64,000 nucleotides of DNA, from the NCBI RefSeq assembly GCF_947495925.1, contig NZ_CANMAU010000004.1, forward strand, positions 310,001-374,000, written 5' to 3'. This document shows, in pieces, positions 9,613-12,255 of the stretch. The translations under genes and the position numbers were made by a program. The stretch comes from an uncultured Algibacter sp. Its GTDB lineage: Bacteria; Bacteroidota; Bacteroidia; Flavobacteriales; Flavobacteriaceae. Numbering within the stretch: position 1 is the stretch's first letter; every line of letters starts with the position of its first letter. The notes under the pieces are model-generated. The model searched no databases. It saw nothing but the letters and a program-made list of their open reading frames with translations, and was not told where the DNA came from.

Positions 9613-11121
9613 TTAATCTTTCTTAACATTTGAAAAATCATATTTTTTCAAAGTCTTTTGAAGTATTTTCCAATGATTTCGTAACTGTCGTTTTATTTCC
9701 GGAGCTTCCAATTCATCAGAAGCTCTGTATGCATATCTTAAATAATTACCTCTAAATTTTCTTTCAAAATTTTTGGTTCTTGCTTTGCTATTTACAAATT
9801 CCGTTCTTTTAACTGGAAGCATTCTAGACTTCTCTCCTTTAAAACTAAAAAGCCTATATACTTTTCTTTTAAATATAGGAGCTTCATCTAAAAGGTGTTT
9901 TTCTTTAATGGTTTCAACTCTTTTATGTTTTCGTTTTATAGTTTCCTTCATTTCTCTATAAAACTTAGCCAAATTTTTAGACTTTATTAATGTTTGGTAG
10001 CCATAAAACTCAAAACCTAAGTAGTTTAATGGAACGTTTTCTTTTAAATTACCATTGTTCTCAATTTTGAAACTTTGTAAACGGCCACGGTTTATTTTGA
10101 AAAGTGTTTTCTCTGTTTTTTCTAATGAAATAGTTAATTTATTTTTTATCATTTCATTTTTGACAAACTCTTCAATTAGCTTTATTTGATTTTCTTTACT
10201 AATCACGACAATATCATCAGAATATCTTCTGTAGAATACACTGTGCTTTACTGTTAATTCATTTATTACGGATTCATCAAAATCAAGCATATAAATGTTA
10301 GCAAGTAATGCGCTAATGGGTAAACCTTGAGGTATTCCCATTAAGTTTTTATTATCATCTTTTTTTTGATTTTTATGTATGATGATATCTGAATCAATAA
10401 GGTCTTTTATACTTTCAAAAAAGGTGTGTTTACCGTTTTTTCTATGTTTCGATAATCGCTTTTCATCAAAATGGCCGTTTTTGGATTTTAGATCTTTTAG
10501 TTTTACATAAGAAAATTTAGTTGTTGCTTTAAAAATATTAAAATGATCTTTTGGTAACGTTTTGTTGCCTAATATTTTAGCCCAAGCTAATTTTAGTTTT
10601 TTATGATTTAGACTAGGAAAGAAGTTTTCTATATCTAGAACTAAAGCAACACAATTTTTTCTTCGTTTAATTTCATCAAAAACATCCTTCGCAAAATGAA
10701 CATTGTTTTTAAACTTGAGCTTATCATCTGTTTCAATTTGTCTGTATGCAGTTATCGAATTTGAAAGTAATGAGTTATTTTTTAGATAAGTCTCATATTT
10801 TGGGTTAATAATTTGTTGTGTATAATAAGAATATATGTGTGCATCAATATGGGAAGCATAAAGTATTTTTCTGATTTTTGTATTTGAAACTACTTTACCT
10901 TTTTTGACCTTCTTATGAGAATGCCTTTTTACATCATTAAATTTGGCTAATTTATAGCGACGTTGTTTAATTTCTTTAAAAATTAAAGGAGAAAAAGAGT
11001 GATGAGCTACTTTTTTGGAATTCGTAACATAGCGTTCAATATTTTTTCTAATCGACAATGGGGTCTTATTAGTAAAATGTGGATAGCCTCTATCTTTAAA
11101 CCAGTCTTTTTGTGCTTTCAT
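9613..11121 (-). CDS. Reverse transcriptase of the defence-associated (UG/DRT) type, probably DRT2-like
   Basis: 502 residues with all core RT motifs: motif A 'VLDIENFFPSLNH' (Asp 163), motif B 'GIPQGLPISALLANIYM' (PQG at 264-266), motif C 'YRRYSDDIVVIS' (catalytic Asp 302-303), then 'ISLEKTEKTLF' and 'YLGFEFYG'. The N-terminal block 'DWFKDRGYPHF', 'HSFSPLI' and 'YASHIDAHIYSYY' resembles unknown-group RTs used in phage defence. There is no maturase or endonuclease domain as in group II intron RTs, and no fused partner domain. The C-terminal 130 residues are basic and helical. Upstream is a long structured non-coding region, as expected for DRT2-type systems whose RT copies a neighbouring ncRNA. 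RT identity is near certain; the subtype is inference. Confidence 0.9.
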   Translation of the reverse strand: MKAQKDWFKDRGYPHFTNKTPLSIRKNIERYVTNSKKVAHHSFSPLIFKEIKQRRYKLAKFNDVKRHSHKKVKKGKVVSNTKIRKILYASHIDAHIYSYYTQQIINPKYETYLKNNSLLSNSITAYRQIETDDKLKFKNNVHFAKDVFDEIKRRKNCVALVLDIENFFPSLNHKKLKLAWAKILGNKTLPKDHFNIFKATTKFSYVKLKDLKSKNGHFDEKRLSKHRKNGKHTFFESIKDLIDSDIIIHKNQKKDDNKNLMGIPQGLPISALLANIYMLDFDESVINELTVKHSVFYRRYSDDIVVISKENQIKLIEEFVKNEMIKNKLTISLEKTEKTLFKINRGRLQSFKIENNGNLKENVPLNYLGFEFYGYQTLIKSKNLAKFYREMKETIKRKHKRVETIKEKHLLDEAPIFKRKVYRLFSFKGEKSRMLPVKRTEFVNSKARTKNFERKFRGNYLRYAYRASDELEAPEIKRQLRNHWKILQKTLKKYDFSNVKKD

Positions 11122-11139
11122 AATTAAATAAAAGTAAGA

Positions 11140-11555
11140 GAAGTTCTCGCACGTATTTATAACAGAATAAAACTTACACCTTTTAAAAAGGATTGAACCA
11201 TTAGCCGAGTTCTCGACTCACGTTGCATTTTTACGTCTAAATAATAAATACTTATATATGATAGAACTTACCCTAGCAATAATTAACTTAGCTTTAGAAG
11301 CCTTTAATGTATGCCATAGCTTGGTGTATATCAATGTACTAATAAGAATTATTGAGGTAGTAACGTTACTTCCGAAAATAATTTCTTATCTCGGTGTAAC
11401 AAAACTAACAGAATTACATAGTACCTAATCTCCATATTTATTAACCCCTTTTCTATTAAAAAGGTCGGATTAAGTGATTGATTAGAAATCAATACAATAG
11501 TTCAACAAATGTTTTATTCTTTTTAACTAAAGAACTTCCTTACTTTAGTTGTAAA
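11140..11555 (-). ncRNA. Candidate structured ncRNA template of the reverse transcriptase
   Basis: The 440 bp between the RT start codon and the divergent gene is too long for a simple promoter region. On the RT strand it can form several hairpins: arms 11525-11532/11543-11550 (8 bp), 11480-11485/11491-11496 around the ATTGAT/ATCAAT pair, a CCTTTT/AAAAGG stem near 11448-11463, an AAAAGG-type palindrome near 11179-11192, and GAGT/ACTC near 11207-11219. DRT2 systems carry such an ncRNA just upstream of the RT and on its strand. The exact ends cannot be read from sequence, and no covariance evidence is available here. Confidence 0.5.
11258..11428 (+). other. Stop-free frame inside the ncRNA region (Neo-like or small hydrophobic peptide)
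   Basis: An ATG at 11258 opens 56 codons ending at TAA 11426-11428. The same frame is open back to 11171, giving 85 codons without stop in AT-rich DNA. The product 'MIELTLAIINLALEAFNVCH' and onwards is hydrophobic and would form helices. It is antisense to the RT and the candidate ncRNA, hence in the sense of any cDNA copied from that RNA. It may be an ordinary small protein, a concatemer reading frame of the DRT2 kind, or chance. Confidence 0.35.
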
Positions 11556-11598
11556 TATAATATTATTGTTATTTTTATCTAAGAAAAATCAATTAAAC

Positions 11599-12255
11599 AT
11601 GAGCAATTTTATTGTTGGAGATATTGTTACAATTAAATCACATCCTTTATTTAGTAATACACATAAGAAAATAAATGCTTTAACTTCTCTTGTACCTCCT
11701 TTGATGGTTGTCAAAGAAGTTCTTTTCGATAAAGAAGAAAAAAAAATATTATATAGTAATGAAATTAAAAAGGCAAAAATTGCTGACTTGACAAAGTATG
11801 TATGTGTTTATTTTAACGCAAATAAAAGTGAGTTTGTTGAGAAAACCATTTATCATTCTTTAGTAAAAGGCTACTTAGATTTAAAATATTATAGAAAAGA
11901 AGAAAAAAGTAAGTCTTCAAATATTGATTTAGTTTTAGAAGTAGCTAAATATAAACACAATGTTGATTATGAGTTTGGTAAATGCGTTCAGTTTAAAACA
12001 AAAAAATTAGAGCATAGAAAATCTTATGATGCTAATACTGTAGAAAGAATTCCAGGAATTTCTTTTCAAACACCTGATTTTATATTGACAGGAATTAAGA
12101 ATGAAGAGCAGAAAGACTTGTTTTTTAATGATGGTACGCAAAAAAAACAAATGAGTACTCAGTTATTTAAAGTGATGTGGTTTAATCACTATCAACAAAA
12201 GTTTAGTGAAGATTATTTACCTAAAGAGTTTTTTGTTGAAGATTTAGAAATATAA
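11599..12255 (+). CDS. Uncharacterised protein divergent from the reverse transcriptase
   Basis: 218 residues from the ATG at 11599 (an earlier TTG at 11566 adds 11 residues without domain character). It begins 'MSNFIVGDIVTIKSHPLF' and continues 'LVPPLMVVKEVLF'; the 'VGDIV..KSHP' and 'PPLMVV.E' phrases look like a small beta-barrel domain, followed by a Lys-rich alpha/beta part and an acidic tail. No signal peptide, no membrane helix and no catalytic motif that I recognise. It is 3 bp short of the convergent ABC ATPase gene. Its place beside the RT and the high AT content suggest it belongs to the same accessory island, but a functional link is inference. Confidence 0.7.
   Translation: MSNFIVGDIVTIKSHPLFSNTHKKINALTSLVPPLMVVKEVLFDKEEKKILYSNEIKKAKIADLTKYVCVYFNANKSEFVEKTIYHSLVKGYLDLKYYRKEEKSKSSNIDLVLEVAKYKHNVDYEFGKCVQFKTKKLEHRKSYDANTVERIPGISFQTPDFILTGIKNEEQKDLFFNDGTQKKQMSTQLFKVMWFNHYQQKFSEDYLPKEFFVEDLEI

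Follow-up and report, generated by a model that had tools for sequence, protein, structure and literature searches.

The locus considered here raises the question of what is encoded by an 85-codon stop-free frame located in the interval between a gene for a reverse transcriptase (RT) of the DRT2 family and a gene for a YodC-like protein in an uncultured Algibacter sp. The window, i.e., the whole stretch of DNA that was analyzed, comprises 64,000 nucleotides (nt) of contig NZ_CANMAU010000004.1 (positions 310,001 to 374,000), and all coordinates below are positions in it. An initial annotation of this DNA had reported the frame as encoding a hydrophobic helical peptide and had proposed that any template unit within the stretch with a length divisible by three would, if copied in tandem, create an endless reading frame. 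Our analysis, for which the locus was known from sequence and predicted models alone and the literature was covered through open-access papers, makes it highly probable that the stretch serves as template in an anti-phage system of the DRT2 type and that its tandem 183-nt copies would yield an endless neo gene. More specifically, this is very probably a neo gene from a branch of Bacteroidota that uses jump triplets of its own and is accompanied by a YodC-like gene; in some relatives, the junction also re-creates a promoter of the host type.

In the DRT2 system of Klebsiella pneumoniae, neo is antisense to the non-coding RNA (ncRNA). Reverse-complementing the sequence between two ACA motifs, with the first one included, gives the theoretical unit, which is divisible by three in 42 of 42 close homologues (PMC12039810). 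The initial annotation had been uncertain whether the sense of its frame matches that of known systems; the published neo has the same, antisense orientation, which settles this caveat. In the window, GTA is found at both template boundaries, at fixed alignment columns, with the 5' GTA located 25 nt past the start of a conserved AATAAATA motif on the 5' side of the template. The RT and the elements that delimit the predicted unit are as follows.

Positions 9613 to 11121, minus strand: DRT2-family RT of 502 amino acids with a YSDD active site (PADLOC Drt2, E 7e-138; PDB DRT2 9c0i, E 2.5e-52).
Positions 11415 to 11417, minus strand: predicted 5' jump triplet GTA, the last bases copied per round and part of the unit.
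Positions 11232 to 11234, minus strand: predicted 3' jump triplet GTA, the re-annealing site, 19 nt ahead of a CGAGAA hairpin.
Positions 11235 to 11417, minus strand: template region, 183 nt, the least conserved part of the ncRNA in the homologue alignment.
Positions 11234 to 11416, plus strand: one Neo repeat of 61 codons, RLNNKYLYMIELTLAIINLALEAFNVCHSLVYINVLIRIIEVVTLLPKIISYLGVTKLTEL, cyclically stop-free, with two helices predicted.
Positions 11258 to 11260, plus strand: the sole in-frame ATG of the unit and likely Neo start.
Positions 11171 to 11428, plus strand: linear open frame (by translation) that contains the unit; its stop is outside the template.

Counted as in the published system, the predicted unit spans positions 11235 to 11417 of the plus strand (183 nt, 61 codons); placed head to tail, it is stop-free in the frame first annotated, with C|GT as the junction codon. 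That frame is, as had been reported, open from 11171 to 11425 with an ATG at 11258, i.e., for 85 codons between TAA 11168-11170 and TAA 11426-11428, and the jump triplets supply the template of three-divisible length on which the proposed endless frame depended. Shuffles of the unit gave an any-frame chance of 0.004 for such cyclic openness. The peptide has a grand average of hydropathy (GRAVY) of 1.00, a value reached by 0 of 200 shuffles, and a structure model of one repeat consists of two helices (mean predicted local distance difference test [pLDDT] score of 72.8; predicted template modeling score of 0.42), in line with the hydrophobic helical peptide initially described; a Foldseek search with this single-repeat model found no match. 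The predicted two-helix repeat agrees with the published helical Neo and would, by itself, imply no function.

Homologues were taken from whole genomes of the family and from genome contigs; scans of IMG/VR yielded zero relatives with the single RT protein and weak, distant RTs only with an RT alignment. As relatives are non-independent, homologue counts are given without a combined probability. When jump sites in clade A, the clade of the window, were set from alignment columns with frames ignored, 39 of 45 units had a length divisible by three, and all 39 were cyclically open (null mean of 0.02 per unit); with L123, L129, L149, and L150 added, this holds for 43 of 43 units, each with an in-frame ATG and with lengths of 105, 171, 174, 183, 186, 189, 192, 204, or 207 nt. 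By contrast, the sense (RT) strand was cyclically open in just 3 of the 39 homologous units; the 50-codon frame on that strand (11501-11352), which had also been listed initially, exists and is ordinary. The junction phase varies among clade-A units (frames 0, 1, and 2) and their peptides are often merely 10-25% identical to that of the window, indicating that these units do not represent one inherited frame. Diverged pairs showed zero stops where 1.5-3.7 were expected per pair, with changes at all three codon positions and modest amino-acid constraint, and homologous Neo units had a GRAVY of 0.77 versus 0.14 in shuffles.

A second group of relatives, clade B (RTs with 37-42% identity), has a related scaffold with GACTCA. 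Jump sites in this clade were set by a frame-blind rule that takes the ATT located 14-20 nt ahead of GACTCA and an ATT past the 5'-side GG motif; as ATT was spotted by eye and by scan in these same loci, the rule is independent of frame and not of the loci to which it was applied. A rule based on alignment columns misplaced the 3' site in this clade, and the GACTCA-anchored rule was used instead. While 5 of 23 loci yielded no site under this rule, the others gave 18 units of 102-201 nt, all 18 of which were divisible by three and open. Openness was thus kept while codons diverged, the behavior in homologues that the initial annotation had singled out, in 43 of 43 units in clade A and 18 of 18 in clade B. 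An exploratory search in clade C2 found a consistent triplet pair with open units of 132, 129, 132, and 123 nt, which were left out of the counts because of the freedom of that search. In a partial Proteobacterial control, Psychrobacter L121 has one ACA unit (105 nt, open) and none was found in Photobacterium L120.

These data bear on the simplest alternative, in which the linear open reading frame (ORF) 11258-11428 (56 amino acids) is a plain small gene expressed from the chromosome. This ORF does have an ATG and a stop and, like many small ORFs, is unmatched in Pfam and PADLOC; however, a small gene would leave unexplained the multiple-of-three spacing of the jump triplets, the openness upstream of the ATG to the junction, and the recurrence in two clades with unrelated peptides, and its stop falls outside the template. 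We consider this alternative very unlikely.

Several observations weigh against an endless neo gene. When the 477-nt region was shuffled with its dinucleotides kept, 50 of 3000 shuffles contained a linear run of 85 codons in any of six frames (p about 0.017). Jump triplets are imperfect in L049, L052, L058, and L123, and unit length departs from a multiple of three in 6 of the 45 units of clade A. A junction promoter was not found for the window, which has no good sigma-A match there and whose best match to the Bacteroidota consensus (7/9) equals background. The first of these would fit a chance open frame in a structured ncRNA, with some other RT product as the effector, but openness holds for all 61 units of three-divisible length in the two clades, many of which have diverged strongly, and we regard chance as extremely improbable. 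Cyclic openness is rarer than the linear run, and we take its conservation across homologues as the decisive observation.

Evidence for a DRT2 ncRNA around the template comes from the interval between the RT and YodC-like genes (477 nt, 27% GC), for which the following elements are predicted.

Positions about 11132 to 11546, minus strand: predicted DRT2 ncRNA, with its 5' end near 11546 and its 3' end just ahead of the RT start (39 homologues show conservation and covariation in its 5' and 3' parts).
Positions 11532-11546 with 11132-11150, minus strand: pairing of the ncRNA ends in the fold of 39 homologues.
Positions 11476 to 11495, minus strand: 5' handle-like hairpin GTATTGATTTCTAATCAATC, with covarying pairs.
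Positions 11424 to 11474, minus strand: stem of nine pairs formed by CTTAATCCGACC (11463-11474) and GGAGATTAGG (11424-11433), beside the 5' jump site of the template.
Positions 11204 to 11221, minus strand: scaffold hairpin GTGAGTCGAGAACTCGGC, with covarying pairs (e.g., G-C 28 / A-U 11).
Positions 11551 to 11559, minus strand: -7-like box TATATTTAC, a possible ncRNA promoter judged by sequence and conservation.

Homologous upstream regions have conserved 5' and 3' parts around a hypervariable middle, and the fold of the two conserved parts in 39 homologues is a closed structure with paired ends, the handle-like hairpin, the template-side stem, and the scaffold hairpin. Since structure and covariation counts come from one alignment, the counts favor the structure, and it is the two-sided changes that carry weight; these are seen at many pairs (e.g., U-A 23 / A-U 13 / C-G 2 and C-G 29 / A-U 8), including one pair of hairpin GTATTGATTTCTAATCAATC (G-C 14, U-A 11, A-U 6, C-G 6) and the majority of the nine pairs of the CTTAATCCGACC/GGAGATTAGG stem. 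An Rfam search with the ncRNA matched zero models. Many clade-A templates contain a short palindrome that is centered on CG and varies in its letters (window 11360-11369 and the equivalent place in relatives), e.g., GTAACGTTAC, TATCGATA, CTTTCGAAAG, ATAACGTTAT, and GTGACGTCAC, which as RNA would form a hairpin with a self-complementary loop and perhaps play a role in dimerization. One clade-A locus, L129, has an RT with many stops, yet its 186-nt template unit is open.

In the proposed mechanism, the RT would bind the flanking ncRNA and copy the template from 11235 to 11417 (plus coordinates); at the 5'-end GTA, it would jump back to the GTA at 11232-11234, generating tandem 183-nt plus-sense repeats with the predicted junction ...CAGAATTAC|GTCTAAAT.... 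Double-stranding and transcription would then provide 61 stop-free codons per repeat and hence a long hydrophobic helical Neo, which would arrest the infected cell. What the sequences show is the family of the RT, the architecture of the ncRNA, the agreement of the jump triplets, the length and openness of the unit, and the conservation of these features; jumping, second-strand synthesis, transcription, translation, and toxicity would proceed as in the published Klebsiella system, from which they are carried over.

With regard to transcription, the initial annotation had suggested a search for a promoter formed across the repeat junction; one is clear by sequence in several relatives and not in the window. 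The Bacteroidota promoter consensus is TTTG / TAnnTTTG (PMC2483708, PMC7366714). Six of the 45 clade-A units (L030, L035, L036, L040, L050, and L051) match 9/9 informative bases (TTG, 18-22 nt, TAnnTTTG) across the junction, no clade-A unit has a 9/9 match away from it, and the -7 box is at unit position +1 in 12 units, compared with a background of 1.3% per position. A perfect junction promoter is also missing from L023, a near relative of the window, and from several others. The window, L023, and others without this promoter share a post-junction A+T stretch, AATAAATAC..TATA..ATG, which may represent a leader or an unrecognized promoter. An A+T leader AATAAATA..TATA..ATG (window 11237-11260; also L025, L029, L032, L033, L039, L024, L026, and L042) is preserved as DNA despite being read in different frames; its core, ATAAATAC, may resemble late promoters of the phage T4 type. 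The Klebsiella DRT2 publication anticipated phage-specific promoters in diverse DRT2 systems. Separately, three clade-B units (L097, L098, and L099, from Flavobacterium and Chryseobacterium) have a perfect TTG/TAnnTTTG promoter within the unit, at positions 53-55 and off the junction, suggesting that transcription of some units in this clade may proceed without the rebuilding of a promoter.

Stops in the frame inside the template and unit lengths other than a multiple of three, which the initial annotation had named as counterevidence, are absent from the window and the great majority of homologues; the five clear exceptions in clade A still carry a junction-crossing ORF. The units of L024, L026, L028, L042, and L067 (182, 181, 181, 185, and 170 nt, respectively) each have an ORF of 56-58 codons that begins with ATG, extends through the template and over the junction, and then meets a stop, ending 4-11 nt ahead of the next ATG or, in L067, overlapping it as ATGA; few shuffles (5 to 79 of 1500) gave an ORF as long. 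L024, L042, and L067 have in-frame stops ahead of the ATG, making an endless frame impossible in any jump register, while a jump adding two bases could restore an endless frame in L026 and L028. The exceptions are dispersed over the RT tree, and the closest RT to that of L024 belongs to L027, whose endless template is unrelated, so that templates seem to have been exchanged between RTs. Unit length is apparently unconstrained where the ORF terminates. The sixth clade-A unit not divisible by three (L047, 172 nt) looks decayed. On balance we lean slightly toward the view that, in part of the Bacteroidota branch, the gene that the RT produces does end, the concatemer being a series of identical terminated small ORFs that exist only across the junction. 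If true, the multiple-of-three rule would be lifted for unit length, DRT2 immunity would not depend on endless translation and ribosome trapping, and one Neo unit would be enough as the effector. The same mode, a single-unit ORF crossing the junction and ending just past it, could be proposed for the window on the strength of the finished ORFs (56-58 amino acids) in these five loci, but the window unit is divisible by three and open through its ATG, so that this mode fits the relatives and there is very little probability that it applies to the window.

The gene on the other side of the interval is

Positions 11599 to 12255, plus strand: YodC-like gene (PADLOC RTasYodC, E 6.8e-75), divergent from the RT.

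In clades A and B, nearly every locus has a YodC-like gene next to the RT, mainly divergent from the ncRNA and codirectional in some (L050, L054, L057-L063, and L065). The protein was modeled as a confident beta-rich fold (pLDDT 86.7), for which a structure search found just weak matches to SH3/Tudor/KOW-type barrels (Z of 4.2 or less) and gave no family assignment; its sequence suggests two similar barrel halves. YodC-like and Neo distances, with the RT allowed for, were slightly correlated (partial r of 0.17, 1 of 2000 permutations), which linkage alone may explain, and the open-access literature yielded nothing relevant on YodC together with an RT. In L046 (Tenacibaculum dicentrarchi), the RT is kept, the ncRNA and template are absent from their usual place, and a YodC-like coding sequence is found there.

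The window locus shares with Klebsiella DRT2/Neo (PMC12039810; PMC11100668; PDB 9c0i) a homologous RT, an upstream ncRNA in which the scaffold is conserved and the template varies, template ends that carry one and the same triplet, a unit length that is a multiple of three, an antisense neo, and a hydrophobic helical product, and appears to match that system in all sequence-testable features save two, the promoter across the junction and the triplet used for jumping. It differs in the larger template (183 versus 120 nt) and ncRNA (about 415 versus 280 nt); relatives differ further in their promoter boxes (Bacteroidota -33/-7 versus TTGACA/TATAAT) and, in some cases, in having a finished rather than endless ORF. 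As judged from its sequence, the locus is a DRT2 member outside the ACA (Klebsiella-type) subgroup, because its jump triplet is GTA, as in clade A (ATT in clade B), and not ACA; that subgroup is also characterized by no extra protein gene, whereas a YodC-like gene flanks nearly all Bacteroidota loci. DRT9 and DRT10 (PMC12483538; PMC12632851) likewise are class 2 UG RTs that make ncRNA-templated repetitive DNA, but their products, a dA homopolymer and short tandem repeats, respectively, have not been described as protein-coding. Telomerase, an analogy drawn by the DRT2 authors, also uses a repeated template-end sequence for realignment, but its repeats are 4-8 nt and have no coding function.

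For divergent DRT2 clades, ncRNAs have been found, but Neo was harder to annotate and other mechanisms were left open (PMC11100668). Relative to the open-access literature, the reach into Bacteroidota, the new jump triplets, the more than 60 units, the constant partner gene, and the finished-ORF variants appear to be new. Allowing for other jump triplets (GTA, ATT) would make Neo readable across Bacteroidota, which yields over 60 Neo repeats for studies of structure and toxicity as well as a simple rule by which hidden genes can be located, and the occurrence of both endless and finished ORFs would provide a natural test of whether endlessness matters.
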